Virus record (IMG/VR): IMGVR_UViG_3300043775_001242
Span: 1 to 54,301 of that record
From: a virus
DNA length: 54,301 nt
Reading direction: 5' to 3' (one strand)
Of the stretch, positions 21,378-34,849 are shown piece by piece. Position 1 is the stretch's first letter; each line of letters begins with the position of its first letter. The translations under genes were made by a program, and so were the position numbers. The notes beneath the pieces are model-generated. The model saw only the letters and a program-made list of their open reading frames with translations, was not told the DNA's origin and did not search any database.

Positions 21378-21381
21378 TTTT

Positions 21382-21401
21382 ACCATCCATTATAGGGTGG
21401 T
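21382..21401 (+). terminator. Inverted repeat after gp46, possible weak terminator
   Basis: ACCATCC and GGGTGGT form a 7-bp stem (one G-T pair) with loop ATTATA. No T-run follows, so termination is uncertain. The next late-promoter-like box begins at the end of this repeat. Confidence 0.35.
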
Positions 21402-21415
21402 TAAATACACATAAC
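21401..21415 (+). promoter_or_regulatory. Late-promoter-like box upstream of the small basic protein
   Basis: TTAAATACACATAAC lies 17 bases before the ATG at 21433, followed by an AAGGAG ribosome-binding site. It matches the extended TAAATACA motif of other late units here. Confidence 0.58.
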
Positions 21416-21432
21416 AACAAGGAGAAGTAAAC

Positions 21433-21618
21433 ATGTCAATTCATGAAGATATTTTAGCAGCAGTAGAATTATACGTTTCAGAATCAGAAAAATTCGAAGT
21501 TAAAGGTGTTAAAGCTGCAGCGGCACGTGCTCGCGGTGCATTAGGTGACTTGGCTAAATTGGCCAAAGCTCGTCGTGCAGAAATCCAAGAGAAGAAAAAT
21601 GCAGCGGCTGCAAAATAA
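21433..21618 (+). CDS. Small histone-H1-like basic protein
   Basis: A 61-aa protein, all-helical by composition, ending in an Ala/Lys/Arg-rich tail (KARRAEIQEKKNAAAAK). The core EKFEVKGVKAAAARARGALG resembles small conserved proteins of T4-like aquatic phages and the lysine/alanine-rich bacterial histone H1-like (Hc1) proteins. DNA binding or compaction is an inference. It has a strong AAGGAG ribosome-binding site and its own late-type promoter, suggesting high late expression, which would fit a DNA-packaging or virion-internal protein. The stop is 7 bases before the GIY-YIG gene. Confidence 0.72.
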   Translation: MSIHEDILAAVELYVSESEKFEVKGVKAAAARARGALGDLAKLAKARRAEIQEKKNAAAAK

Positions 21619-21625
21619 ATAACGT

Positions 21626-22066
21626 ATGACATACGAATATCCTTGGACGTACAATGGTGTAATATTTGACTCTGAGGATATTGGTGAATACTACGGTTTC
21701 ATTTATAGAATAACCAATCTTACTAACGGCCACGATTATGTTGGCCGTAAGTATTTTAAAACTATCAAAAAAAGACCACCGCTAAAAGGTAAGAAGAACA
21801 AACGTCTAGAAACAATTGAAACTGATTGGAAAGACTATTGGGGTTCATCGAGTCGATTAGTAGCAGATATCCTAGCTTTAGGCAAGGAACAGTTTAAACG
21901 CGAAATTATACATTTGTGTAAGAGTCGCGGAGAAACTAACTATATGGAAGCGCATTATCAATTTATGGAAGAAGTACTGTTAAGAGAAGATAACTATAAT
22001 GGTATTATACAGCTTAAACTTGGTAAAGGCTCTGTAAAAGATTTAAAGATTAATAAAAACAGTTGA
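21626..22066 (+). CDS. GIY-YIG family endonuclease-like protein
   Basis: A 146-aa protein with a GIY-YIG-type nuclease opening: YGFIYRITNLTNGHDYVGRK at about 23-42, where YGF-IY stands for GIY and YVG for YIG, with Arg41 as the likely catalytic arginine. Downstream ETNYMEAHYQFMEEVLLRED supplies a candidate metal-binding Glu and is typical of phage Seg-like nucleases. No separate DNA-binding module is seen, so it may be a resident phage nuclease and not a mobile homing enzyme. A TAAATA at 21616 lies too close to its ATG to be its promoter. A sigma70-type promoter for the following RNA overlaps its stop codon. Confidence 0.78.
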   Translation: MTYEYPWTYNGVIFDSEDIGEYYGFIYRITNLTNGHDYVGRKYFKTIKKRPPLKGKKNKRLETIETDWKDYWGSSSRLVADILALGKEQFKREIIHLCKSRGETNYMEAHYQFMEEVLLREDNYNGIIQLKLGKGSVKDLKINKNS

Positions 22067-22091
22067 CCAACGACACTAAACGTATTACAAT
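22063..22091 (+). promoter_or_regulatory. Sigma70-type promoter of the candidate non-coding RNA
   Basis: TTGACC (22063-22068) and TACAAT (22086-22091) are separated by exactly 17 bases, one of the best host-type promoters in the window. The predicted start is near 22098. The -35 box overlaps the stop codon of the GIY-YIG gene. No gene follows for over 600 bases, so it most likely drives an RNA. Confidence 0.62.
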
Positions 22092-22097
22092 AAACAC

Positions 22098-22664
22098 ACA
22101 GCTCTCTAGACACCAAGTCACTCTCATAGAAACAAATTCCAACTCCGCAGTAAAGTAGTAAATGTAATAAAAGCCCTATTGCAGATTAAGTTCTGTATTC
22201 AGAGGAGATCGTGCTCGCGTAATGGCCGCACGTGGAACGTGTAGACTAGACTACACACTGAATGGCGACTGGTATTGTGCTATAAAAAGCGAATCAACAA
22301 TATAAAAATTAGGTGTAAAAACCGAATGATTTGGGCACTGTGAAAAAGATACAACCCATATGATGACATAGTTTGGCTAACTACGGATTATGCATCAACC
22401 GTCGTAAGAAGCAAGAGTAGGGAGTACAGGGCGACCGCTTCCGTGTAAATGAATATAATCTCTTTTAGTTAGTATGATGAAGCACTCGGATGAAGTCGCT
22501 CTGTTTTACTTTGCCTGTAATGGGTGAAGTATGACTATAATCTGGATGAAGCAGTTCTAAAGTCAAAAGCATTACAGTACATATCAAAGTAAATTAGATT
22601 AATTAGATTAGAAGAAAAAGCATTGAGCGATAGCGATAATGCAGATGTCGTTAGACATCTTTTA
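22098..22664 (+). ncRNA. Candidate large structured non-coding RNA (about 570 nt)
   Basis: The gap 22067-22749 has no convincing coding frame but is flanked by a 17-spaced promoter and an intrinsic terminator on the same strand. Two nested multi-stem arms can be drawn by eye. Arm 1: 22377-22383 with 22466-22472 (7 bp), enclosing 22386-22391 with 22455-22460 (6 bp) and 22408-22412 with 22437-22441 (5 bp). Arm 2: 22505-22513 with 22585-22593 (9 bp), enclosing 22515-22522 with 22570-22577 (8 bp) and 22532-22536 with 22561-22565 (5 bp). Local hairpins: 22210-22232, 22239-22256, 22273-22302 and 22620-22642. An AGTATGA...GGATGAAG block is duplicated. GOLLD or ROOL-type phage RNAs are possible relatives but membership was not tested. 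Confidence 0.58.
22643..22664 (+). terminator. Intrinsic terminator of the candidate RNA
   Basis: AGATGTC, loop GTTA, GACATCT forms a perfect 7-bp stem followed by TTTAAG, with the T-run starting inside the stem end. It is immediately preceded by another hairpin (22620-22642). It would end plus-strand transcription from the promoter at 22063. Confidence 0.55.
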
Positions 22665-22721
22665 AGTATATTAAAGTTTTTGCTGTTATAATGACTTTGA
22701 TAGGTGTATATTATAGTCAAT

Positions 22722-22745
22722 AAAAAAGCACAATAAATGTGCTTT
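22722..22745 (-). terminator. Intrinsic terminator of the gp26-like operon
   Basis: On the minus strand AAAGCACA, loop TTTAT, TGTGCTTT is a perfect 8-bp stem ending in a run of T. It lies 5 bases past the stop of the 72-codon ORF and separates that operon from the convergent RNA unit. Confidence 0.65.
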
Positions 22746-22749
22746 AGTA

Positions 22750-22968
22750 TTAAAAAAACGGAAGTCCGCTTTTTTGTGTAGTTTCCATATTATCTTTAAT
22801 AATCTTGTTAATAATCTCTCTATCAGTAATACCTAACATCATTGCATCATCGTACGATAATGCGCCTCTCATATACCAACATAATCTTAATGCTTCATCC
22901 TTAAAGGCTTTTGCTCCCTTTTCCATACTATCTAACTCTGATTCAATTTCCTCGTTAGATAGAGACAA
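22750..22968 (-). CDS. Small tail-assembly-type ORF downstream of the gp26-like gene, possibly made by -1 frameshift
   Basis: A 72-codon ORF whose independent start would be TTG (22968-22966), preceded by a weak AAGG; an internal ATG lies at codon 15. The product ends DNMETTQKSGLPFF and contains ALRLCWYMRGALSYDDAMML. It lies 5 bases after the gp26-like gene in the -1 frame, and that gene's last codons contain the slippery heptamer T TTT TTC. A -1 slip would read through CGC TTA AGG CTT into this ORF with no stop, giving a fusion of about 356 aa. This mirrors the G/GT tail-assembly chaperones beside tape measure genes in many long-tailed phages. Whether it is made alone, as a fusion, or both is unknown. 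Confidence 0.65.
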   Translation of the reverse strand: MSLSNEEIESELDSMEKGAKAFKDEALRLCWYMRGALSYDDAMMLGITDREIINKIIKDNMETTQKSGLPFF

Positions 22969-22973
22969 AAGCC

Positions 22974-23819
22974 TTAAGCGAAAAAACTTGTTTGGTTGAA
23001 CTCCACTTTAACTTTGTATTTCTCGTGGCATTCATCACATACTAATTCCACTGGTTCCATTGCGTTAGCAACTACTGTAGATTCAATTAGTTCTTTAACC
23101 GCTTCGTAAGTTTTTCTATCAGTATTATTAAGAAAGTCTTGTATTAACATTGATTCTTCAACAACAGTGCCTGTTTCAGTAGTAATAGATTGAATACATG
23201 AAACTAATGTATTGATGTTTAAATCAGTTAATTTGTCAAACGATTCTTGAAATCTTGCTTTTTTGTCTTCGTCGCTTAACTCGCTATTAGAAATAACATT
23301 CATTAGTTTTTGCTGTTCAAACGATATTAAGCCTATCCTATTTAAATCGTTATATGTTTGCGGTTTAAGTTTGAATAGTAGATCGTTTAACACATTTGAT
23401 TCGTTATATTGTTTTAACGGGGCTATATTGTCTAACACTCCGCGTAAATCGATAGTATGTTCGTTATCTGCGCCGCAGTGAGTACAATTACTAGACATAT
23501 CCATCCCTGGCCCGTAACTGGCTAATCTAATAGCAATTAAAATGGAATCTAAATCAACTAATGGTATATGCCATGGATCTTTAATAGATGGGCAACAGCT
23601 AGCAATCATATCACGCATACCTGCACCGTTCATTAGTGCATCTGGCGTTTTCAATAAAATTTCATCTTTAATAGTCATTGGGTAAACTGGGATTTCTCCA
23701 GTCACTGATATATCTAAAGTTCCTTGAGGATAAAATTTCCCCGCACTAGGCAATTTTAGATAAATTGCCGGCTGCCTGAAATGGTTGGCTAACGGGTTGT
23801 TTGCGATTGAATTACTCAT
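22974..23819 (-). CDS. gp26: gp26-like baseplate hub / tail assembly protein
   Basis: A 281-aa protein resembling the gp26 family of T4-like phages. The opening LKLPSAGKFYPQGTLDISVT and the IPVYPMTIKDEILLKTPDAL segment are typical, and a Cys pair (CTHC, about 112-115) with a second near the C-terminus (CDEC) may bind zinc. T4 gp26 (208 aa) is described as a baseplate hub subunit. The gene is divergent from the tape measure. Its C-terminus overlaps the T TTT TTC slippery sequence. The ATG at 23819-23817 has a late-type TAAATA box about 40 bases upstream. Confidence 0.78.
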   Translation of the reverse strand: MSNSIANNPLANHFRQPAIYLKLPSAGKFYPQGTLDISVTGEIPVYPMTIKDEILLKTPDALMNGAGMRDMIASCCPSIKDPWHIPLVDLDSILIAIRLASYGPGMDMSSNCTHCGADNEHTIDLRGVLDNIAPLKQYNESNVLNDLLFKLKPQTYNDLNRIGLISFEQQKLMNVISNSELSDEDKKARFQESFDKLTDLNINTLVSCIQSITTETGTVVEESMLIQDFLNNTDRKTYEAVKELIESTVVANAMEPVELVCDECHEKYKVKVEFNQTSFFA

Positions 23820-33722: not shown

Positions 33723-33752
33723 CCCACAATGGGTTTATGCGGTCCCAACCGC
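33723..33752 (+). other. Two tandem hairpins in the leader of the 331-aa gene
   Basis: CCCA-CAA-TGGG (33723-33733) and GCGGT-CCCA-ACCGC (33739-33752) stand close together ahead of an AAGGAG site (33779). The second has a 5-bp GC-rich stem. No T-run follows. They may protect the mRNA or be remnants of the endonuclease cassette boundary. Confidence 0.5.
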
Positions 33753-33791
33753 GTAGATTGTAAAACAATTAAATATATAAGGAGAAAACAA

Positions 33792-34787
33792 ATGGGACGT
33801 CCGTTAAATAAGAAATATTTTGGTAACAGAAACATAGGTACAACAGGTACAGCTGATGATGGCATAGGCGGTCAAGGCATTGCTAGCGTTACTATTGCTG
33901 GCACAAACAACAACTACATTGCAGTACCAACAGCAACATTTGCAGCACCGACACTTCCAGGTGGTGTAACTGCAACAGCAGGCGCAATCACTATGATTGT
34001 TAAGTCAGTTAGTATTACTAACGGCGGCGGCAGCTATATTGATGAAGAAGTAGTAACACTTGGTGACGGTTCTGCCGCAGGCGGCACTGGAACAGTAGAC
34101 GGTACATATACTACTCGTGCAAGTTTTAGAATTAAGAGTGTAGACGGCGGAGGAGCAGCCACAACTATTGAACTAGTTGCCGGCGGTTCTTACACAGTGC
34201 TAGCATACAACGGATCTACTCACGCTAGCGCCGCAGGCAGCACAATTACAGAAATGTATACAACAGGTGGCACTGGTAACAATTTACGTATTGCAATTAC
34301 ATGGGGTGTGTTAGCTGTTGCAGTTAGTAATAAAGGTTCTGGTTATGTAACAGCTCCTGTAATTACTATGACTGGTAATGCTTCTAAAACAGCGGTTTTA
34401 ACAACTGATACCGGTGGCGTTCCGGGTTCATCAACAAATCAAGAAAATGCAATTCAAATTCTAGCTTGGATTCCAACAGCAGATGGTGGTAGTTCATCAG
34501 TTATCGGTGACATTGTTGCACAAAAAGGTTCACGCAGAATGAAAGTTAAAACAGCACAAGGTACAGGCGTTGTGACTTTAGTTGCGGCAGTAGTAGCAGC
34601 TGGTCAAGGTACAATTATTGCTACTGATGCAAATGATAGTACATATTGGGTTACAAAATTAACAAGCAAAAAAGCATTGTTAACACAAAAAGTAATGAAC
34701 GGTTCATTTGAATTTGCTTCAAATTCAACAGCACAATGGTCGTTTGATGCTGCAGAACTTGGTATCGTACAAATAGCCAACGCTTAA
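33792..34787 (+). CDS. Virion structural protein, possibly capsid decoration or fibre-related
   Basis: A 331-aa Gly/Thr/Ala-rich, beta-type protein (MGRPLNKKYFGNRNIGTTGT...). The start is ATG 33792, with AAGGAG 8 bases upstream; an upstream in-frame ATG at 33729 is rejected because it lies between leader hairpins. Repeated GSGYVTAPVITMTG-like and GGGSYIDEEVVTLGDG segments suggest two similar beta domains. The last 90 residues (KGSRRMKVKTAQGTGVVTLV) look like a separate domain. It is late-promoted and followed by a perfect terminator. Family unknown; its place after gp23 suggests a virion protein. Confidence 0.68.
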   Translation: MGRPLNKKYFGNRNIGTTGTADDGIGGQGIASVTIAGTNNNYIAVPTATFAAPTLPGGVTATAGAITMIVKSVSITNGGGSYIDEEVVTLGDGSAAGGTGTVDGTYTTRASFRIKSVDGGGAATTIELVAGGSYTVLAYNGSTHASAAGSTITEMYTTGGTGNNLRIAITWGVLAVAVSNKGSGYVTAPVITMTGNASKTAVLTTDTGGVPGSSTNQENAIQILAWIPTADGGSSSVIGDIVAQKGSRRMKVKTAQGTGVVTLVAAVVAAGQGTIIATDANDSTYWVTKLTSKKALLTQKVMNGSFEFASNSTAQWSFDAAELGIVQIANA

Positions 34788-34800
34788 TTGTAATAAATTA

Positions 34801-34828
34801 AAATAACAGCTTCGGCTGTTATTTTTTT
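34801..34828 (+). terminator. Strong UUCG-loop intrinsic terminator
   Basis: AAATAACAGC, loop TTCG, GCTGTTATTT is a 10-bp perfect stem with continuing T residues. It ends the 331-aa gene transcript. Confidence 0.88.
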
Positions 34829-34849
34829 GACTATACTATCTACAATTAG

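Follow-up and report, generated by a model that had tools for sequence, protein, structure and literature searches.

A pseudoknotted RNA of about 480 nt with twin 7-nt repeats in T4-like jumbo phages and its kinship with Polynucleobacter-1

What does a phage keep in a gap of 0.68 kb in which no believable gene can be found? The window, i.e., the whole 54.3-kb stretch of DNA analyzed here, is a virus record with T4-like genes, among them gp47 and gp46 (phrog_100 and phrog_77), an ORF for a SegE-like GIY-YIG endonuclease, a gp20-like portal gene, and a gene for a baseplate-hub protein that we labelled gp26-like. The gap was confirmed at 22067-22749. It is flanked on one side by the segE-like ORF on the plus strand (21626-22066, with its stop at 22066; PF19835, E = 3.3e-36) and on the other by two ORFs on the minus strand, the next one being at 22750-22968. 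The segE-like ORF also matches phrog_447, labelled 'NAD synthetase', and this label looks wrong because the Pfam match is to a GIY-YIG endonuclease. In the interval between gp46 and segE, a small protein with a match to histone H1-like Hc1 (PF07432) is encoded at 21433-21618, and it is also found in many relatives of the window's subtype. Elsewhere, at 33723-33794 on the plus strand, Rfam recognized a freshwater-2 RNA (RF02980; 52 bits against a cut-off of 49.9). It overlaps the start of a 352-aa ORF at 33729 with no Pfam match, and the true start of this ORF may lie further on.

The original prediction held that the gap has no believable gene and gives rise to a large structured noncoding RNA, and both statements were borne out among relatives. 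When 400 nt of 70 sequences were inspected, the longest open frame had a median of 62 aa and a maximum of 132, and the values after shuffling were 62.5 and 122. There was, thus, no sign of a reading frame, and a hidden gene was rejected because the open-frame lengths were those of shuffled sequences. Bypassing of the T4 gene 60 kind was also considered for the gap and was dropped, since no frame was found.

Covariation and fold of the RNA

A blastn search with the window gap showed conserved noncoding stretches in many of 80 gp46 loci, which were the best 80 of at least 600, and motif scans of IMG/VR returned at least 120 and at least 119 stretches. The loci used for synteny were picked via gp46 and the subtype-A sequences via a conserved 29-mer, so positives are favored in both sets. 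Three subtypes were distinguished in the alignments: A, to which the window belongs, B, and C. They have in common a 3' core, modelled over 150 positions, and differ in their 5' domains. The structure was analyzed in an alignment of 70 distinct subtype-A sequences, including the window, with a mean identity of 0.65 and about 42 effective sequences.

Evidence from the window alone would not settle the RNA question: its single-sequence fold gave z = -1.52, and 6 of 100 shuffles folded equally well. The original prediction had proposed a check for covarying base pairs among relatives, and compensatory changes were found in the 70 subtype-A sequences. With the structure chosen on nearly the same sequences as those counted, a bias in its favor, the 80 pairs and two pseudoknots had 93.8% of their cells paired (80.1 in shuffles), compensatory double changes were observed at 53 of the 80 pairs (37.8 in shuffles), the cells with double changes numbered 753 (225.6 in shuffles), and the covariation score was 0.384 (0.145 in shuffles). 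Not one of 500 shuffles came up to the alignment in any of the four statistics, and chance stems were rejected on this ground; sliding the helix partners made pairing fall to 33-46%. RNAalifold, which is unable to draw pseudoknots, was run on the same alignment with no structure supplied and returned P2, P3, P5, P6, P7, and P10, with double changes at 32 of 49 pairs; the few extra pairs that it drew were not adopted. Collectively, covariation strongly supports a large structured noncoding RNA. It spans about 480 nt, 22180-22663 on the plus strand, and we infer its 5' end from the first helix and its 3' end from a terminator-like hairpin.

All helices lie on this strand. Helix P1 (22196-22202/22258-22264; 92.4% paired, two-sided changes at 6 of 7 pairs) encloses P2 (22210-22214/22228-22232) and P3 (22239-22244/22251-22256), in which 5 of 5 and 5 of 6 pairs, respectively, showed two-sided changes. 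P5 and P5b are found at 22332-22358, with 99.3% and 97.6% of cells paired, and hairpin P6 at 22367-22375/22384-22392 (90.9% paired, two-sided changes at 8 of 9 pairs). The loop of P6, 22376-22383, pairs with 22466-22473 to form pseudoknot PK1, in which 99.3-100% of cells were paired and 6 of 8 pairs changed on both sides. Pseudoknot PK2 joins 22401-22405 to 22431-22435 (86.9% paired, 2 of 5 pairs with two-sided changes), and the equivalent columns of subtype C, 275-277/304-306, covary. P9 (22413-22417/22460-22464) encloses P7 (22420-22425/22437-22442) and P8 (22444-22447/22454-22457), the latter taken from the subtype-A alignment. The most conserved stretch of the RNA lies within this region, 22413-22464. 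P9 shows little variation in subtype A, but compensated changes are seen in it in B and C. Hairpin P10 (22507-22517/22521-22531) was 93.8% paired, with two-sided changes at 7 of 11 pairs. Some pairs were often unformed in the 70 sequences, namely one pair of PK2 (46), the last of P10 (42), the outer one of P6 (27), and the outermost of P9, treated below.

The stems that had been drawn by eye fared unevenly. Two nested arms were proposed, and in the first the 7-bp stem 22377-22383/22466-22472 lies in PK1, where it was paired in 68-70 of the 70 sequences with double changes at 6 of 7 pairs. Its inner stems are probably P9 (5 bp) and P7 (6 bp); P7 was kept in 70 of 70 sequences, but the outermost P9 pair failed in 54 of 70. 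The second arm was not supported: 346 of 541 cells (64.0%) were paired in the 9-bp stem (22505-22513/22585-22593), and the 8-bp stem (22515-22522/22570-22577) reached 290 of 474 (61.2%). Some pairs of these stems had double changes, but P10, which competes with this arm, was paired in 714 of 770 cells (92.7%). Nor was a covarying contact found for the ATGCAT loop suggested to kiss another, half of which falls in the 3' strand of P6; the supported loop contact is, instead, that of PK1.

An extended Polynucleobacter-1 family at a fixed genomic place

The Rfam scan that had been suggested for GOLLD, ROOL, and HEARO was run, and none of them was recognized in the gap. The window RNA had no match at the gathering score, neither GOLLD nor ROOL was found at E ≤ 5 in 21380-22800, and HEARO and group I and II introns remained without a match even at E up to 5. 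The proposed identity with GOLLD or ROOL was abandoned, as no match to either was found in the window or in 13 relatives (E ≤ 1). Polynucleobacter-1 (RF01718; gathering score of 37 bits) also gave no match to the window RNA. It was, in turn, found in 9 of the 13 relatives (E up to 1), where it scored 82-121 bits and preceded the core by roughly 100 nt, and the other four were of subtype A (L088), of subtype B (L031 and L149), or cut short (L082). Among nine large records, RF01718 was above the cut-off in three (G002, G003, and G008), all of subtype C, and just below it in G005, with 35.5 bits. The 141-nt Polynucleobacter-1 motif is, in subtype C, the 5' half of the RNA, and this is where its likeness to the RNA lies; the motif is, thus, part of a larger RNA, which has at least three 5' architectures. 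It differs from the window RNA, whose 5' domain has other helices, and the shared 3' core with the two pseudoknots and the twin repeats is outside the Rfam model.

Covariance models of the core, whose E-values are rough, found the window with 84.8 bits (E = 5.5e-18) in the case of model R1 and, at 22389-22552, with 82.3 bits (E = 7.8e-15) in the case of model R2. The former was built from 24 cores, among them the partly A-like L113, and the latter from 20 subtype-B and -C cores, with L113, L027, L039, and L041 left out; model R2 also found 13 of the 13 subtype-A loci supplied to it, indicating a 3' domain homologous to that of the RF01718-bearing RNAs. Model R1 also matched the window weakly at 34727-34848, with 18.2 bits and E 0.098; this second match was taken as chance and was missing with model R2. 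Since the core models find the window, its RNA belongs together with the RF01718-bearing RNAs in one extended family, and it is almost certain that we are dealing with a real RNA of this extended Polynucleobacter-1 family. The suggestion of a new class was, therefore, right in that Rfam does not recognize the RNA, but one subtype contains Polynucleobacter-1, so the RNA is not wholly unknown.

Table 1 of PMC2864571 (Weinberg 2010) lists Polynucleobacter-1 as probably an RNA and probably cis-regulatory ('y'), with an ambiguous entry ('?') for riboswitch, and gives its origin as Burkholderiales, fresh-water or estuary. Rfam types RF01718 as an sRNA gene. A limited literature search found no later work on Polynucleobacter-1, and among the matches listed in a limited search, none was relevant by title to structured or noncoding RNA of jumbo phages from freshwater.

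The RNA has a fixed genomic place in T4-like jumbo phages. It was found between gp46 and gp26 in 48 of the 48 gp46 loci holding both ends (gp46 and gp26 or orf72), and segE, its usual upstream neighbor, was found in 46 of them; the RNA stood without a segE match in the other two (L052 and L066). In a broader set, at least one neighbor gene of the window was within 8 kb in 131 of 137 occurrences, among the matches listed. No core match was obtained in 17 of the 80 gp46 loci, save a partial one in L056, which was counted as RNA-bearing. Two of the 17 (L001 and L003) hold the 5' part of the RNA, and most of the remaining ones stop less than 2 kb from gp46. Another three, L018, L044, and L069, have 2.8, 4.8, and 6.0 kb available beyond gp46 with no core match, and the RNA may be absent from them or have a more divergent form.

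Where segE was found, the distance from its stop to the core was 205-230 nt in 44 of 68 subtype-A sequences (76 unique), 192-249 nt in 21 of 28 of subtype B (33 unique), and 229-292 nt in 41 of 47 of subtype C (54 unique), and in most of these sequences the stop is close to the first helix. The distance rose to at least 954 nt, i.e., an insert of at least 0.7 kb, in 12 sequences of subtype A, 6 of B, and 3 of C. On the downstream side, the first ORF of at least 60 aa, as given by a crude ORF call, was on the opposite strand in 74 of 110 relatives and on the same strand in 36. One same-strand ORF, L100:10581-11558, encodes 325 aa with no Pfam match. L005 and L006 carry about 0.7 kb of additional sequence directly before the RNA and about 60 additional bases close to the P8 loop. 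In L324, the 5' domain common to these two is joined to a 3' part like that of the window, which points to recombination within the RNA.

Among 50,697 cultured-phage records, blastn with the window gap gave two matches, both with E 0.7, and one subtype-B and one subtype-C copy gave none. In the gp46 regions of the cultured jumbo phages PA5oct and Atu_ph07, model R1 found nothing convincing, and Rfam gave no match at E ≤ 0.1; three weak model R1 matches were found in PA5oct, the best with E 0.049, about 5 kb beyond gp46. The same Pseudomonas phage has 0.66 kb without annotated genes about 2 kb past gp46 (L449:9677-10339), with no match to the RNA or to Rfam. When 58 bacterial contigs matching a 21-mer were scanned, model R1 was convincing in one only, L231 (128.9 bits), followed by L252 (23.7 bits, E 0.0045) and five further contigs with 14-18 bits, and model R2 at E ≤ 0.1 returned L231 alone. 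This 4.5-kb contig, binned as a Bacteroidetes MAG, carries a full RNA core at 21-172 and is perhaps a misplaced phage fragment. RF01718 had no match in one Herbaspirillum genome and one Betaproteobacteria MAG, a result that does not show absence.

Twin 7-nt repeats that change together

The strongest covariation in the 3' core was between columns 52 apart that carry identical, not complementary, letters. In the window, they belong to two direct repeats of GGATGAA on the plus strand, R1 at 22488-22494, preceded by ACTC, and R2 at 22544-22550, preceded by ATCT. The repeats were anchored on these flanking ACTC and ATCT, or near forms, with the repeat letters ignored, and both anchors were found in 231 of 248 occurrences, 147 of them unique, among the matches listed. 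In the 147 sequences, R1 and R2 had the same letter at the seven positions in 144, 144, 146, 144, 142, 143, and 139 cases, and 72, 124, 136, 131, 70, 141, and 74 would be expected if they were independent. Free variation is seen at three of the seven positions. The main variants follow from R-GAU-R-A-W (G/A, G/A, U/A), and each of its eight combinations occurs. Parsimony in subtype A gave about 10, 9, and 10 changes at the three variable positions, equal in number in R1 and R2. As the two copies are equal while changeable, selection seems to keep them so. Their spacing was 48-61 nt in 170 of 171 sequences and 74 in one, which was apparently mis-anchored. In 17 of 171 unique sequences, the 7-mer of the repeats occurs a third or fourth time within 660 nt, often as AGATAAA 17 nt before the core. 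Incomplete identity was observed in 8 of the 147, of which two cases look real (GACGAAA/GACGAAG and GGATGAC/GGATGAT) and six look mis-anchored.

Agreement was also found at some flanking positions. The base five before the repeat agreed in 53 of 69 subtype-A sequences (16.7 expected) and in 85 of 147 of all subtypes (36.1 expected), and two positions further up agreed in 65 and 67 of 69 in subtype A (33.7 and 57.9 expected). At one agreeing upstream position, the cause may be that either module can pair with the 5' arm of P10. Between the repeat and the conserved A that precedes it lie three columns, each of which agreed, in subtype A, in 0 of 69 sequences, and flanking columns that never agree argue against gene conversion. 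Gene conversion or target-site duplication was, thus, considered unlikely, since the flanking triplets stay different and the spacing varies.

Complementary partners of the repeats were sought in several ways. Complements of a sequence's own 7-mer showed no enrichment, either inside the RNA or over 6 kb (within 3 kb), repeat complements had no genome-wide excess, no covarying complement of the repeat was seen within the RNA, and no column of subtype A paired in strict Watson-Crick fashion with a variable repeat position in at least 80% of sequences. An aligned-context test in five large contigs and the window, with usable context at 78 of 194 sites only, returned the RNA itself alone in at least two matching genomes. 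An enrichment of 11-mer partners, 0.20 against 0.10 per locus, was discarded, as 18 of the 33 own sites were R1 or R2 left unmasked, and the remaining 15, one counted twice, compare with 12.2 expected. CsrA-type GGA sites, considered as a reading of the repeats, were dropped because GGA is missing from four of the eight main variants.

The pattern suggests that the repeats are two copies of one binding site or take part in a like-with-like contact; a shared partner would be the plainest reading and direct contact the boldest. We regard as tentative, and on balance doubtful, the idea that the repeats either contact like with like, as a short homo-paired duplex with parallel strands from one molecule or from two, or serve as a changeable address code by which one partner is read twice.

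Ends of the RNA and its possible roles

The RNA had been credited with a promoter and a terminator of its own. The promoter-like TTGACC-N17-TACAAT is present at 22063-22091 on the plus strand (10 of 12 matches), but only near relatives share it. Its hexamers were found in 21 of 131 subtype-A occurrences, a count that includes the window and repeat fetches of one contig and covers only -420 to -250 of the core. Promoter-like sites were not in excess in 21500-23200 (8 found, 6.1 ± 2.4 in shuffles), and upstream sigma-70-like sites with at least 10 matches were present in 18 of 74 sequences of subtype A, 2 of 36 of B, and 2 of 57 of C, with 5-7% expected from mononucleotide shuffling. Outside the window's clade, the RNA comes almost directly after the segE stop, and the 115-nt spacer of the window with its promoter-like site is specific to this clade. 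The T4 late promoter motif TATAAATA was discarded, as it was found upstream in none of the 74 A and 57 C sequences and in one of 36 B. At the other end, the hairpin AGATGTC-GTTA-GACATCT and its TTTT are present at 22643-22663 on the plus strand, resembling an intrinsic terminator, but the T-run is short and the scan did not list it. The equivalent hairpin covaries in subtype C (columns 474-486 to 476-484; 26-29 of 52 sequences with letters there), and so does the equivalent (columns 451-465 and 454-461) of a hairpin with a GAGCGATAGCGA core that lies before it at 22620-22642 on the plus strand.

The gap, thus, contains a pseudoknotted RNA of about 480 nt with no coding sign, whose 3' domain is homologous to that of Polynucleobacter-1-bearing RNAs. 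As for its role, the best explanation overall, to which we give an even chance, is a structured trans-acting RNA with two sites for one partner. It would be made with or after the gp46-segE transcript, or from its own promoter in the window's clade, would end at the intrinsic terminator at 22643-22663, and would fold through PK1, PK2, and P10 into a compact body acting in trans. Its 3' end may be a tandem pair of similar modules, with the same 7-nt sequence presented twice, and its most likely job would be to bring two copies of one partner side by side, be it an RNA of the phage or the host or a protein. We place this two-copy mechanism slightly short of evenly balanced.

In the packaging RNA of phage phi29, copies are joined by short complementary loops. 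The joining of copies via short loops is the likeness to be drawn here, but the repeats of the window RNA are identical instead of complementary, and a link to packaging is not implied. An RNA-only homo-oligomer would resemble GOLLD and ROOL, with R1 and R2 from one molecule or from neighboring ones touching directly, like with like, and we consider it unlikely. The account in PMC12286853 describes both as phage-borne, ornate, cage-forming, and of unknown function, GOLLD with a constant 3' and a less conserved 5' region and ROOL with contacts between identical sequences of different chains. The window RNA is likewise large, ornate, and phage-borne, with a constant 3' and a variable 5' part as in GOLLD and more than one pseudoknot, of which ROOL has several (PMC12286853). 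Moreover, like-with-like covariation without a complement is what a direct symmetric contact would be expected to leave. However, the window RNA matches neither in Rfam, so this is a resemblance only; it is also shorter than GOLLD, and the 54-kb window has 0 tRNA genes, near which GOLLD often lies; this lack of tRNA genes also sets it apart from ROOL. Such a contact would, in addition, require a parallel course of R1 and R2, joined by homo-base pairs over as many as 7 nt, an arrangement that is, to our knowledge, rare in RNA.

The short distance between the segE stop and the first helix in most sequences with segE would also fit a 3' UTR element of the gp46-segE messenger, stabilizing it or governing its translation or processing. 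This seems quite unlikely to us, as the RNA is kept in two of 48 loci with no segE match, is separated from segE by an insert of at least 0.7 kb in some, has a promoter-like site of its own in the window's clade, and is larger and more elaborate than any mRNA stabilizer we know of. With same-strand first ORFs in 36 of 110 relatives, such as the one of 325 aa, a cis role is possible there; for the RNA in general, a cis-regulatory leader or riboswitch, as marked for Polynucleobacter-1 in PMC2864571, is improbable, because the first ORF is not on the same strand in the other 74, the next genes of the window are convergent, a terminator-like hairpin closes the RNA, and the Rfam type of RF01718 is that of an sRNA gene. 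A degenerate or novel self-splicing or homing-associated element tied to the GIY-YIG gene is highly improbable; the usual neighbor is indeed a SegE-like endonuclease of this type, but Rfam gave no intron or HEARO match at E up to 5, and the two loci without a segE match keep the RNA.

The repeats lead to a clear-cut prediction, i.e., changing one of them would cause harm, and changing both alike would restore function. If like-with-like recognition proved true, covariation by identity would be a signal of RNA assembly outside complementarity-based tests, and other ornate RNAs would be worth re-examining for it. For the family, a little-studied group of RNAs is extended well past its known limits, and a 141-nt orphan motif becomes part of a large phage RNA with a fixed address and a covariation-backed structure.
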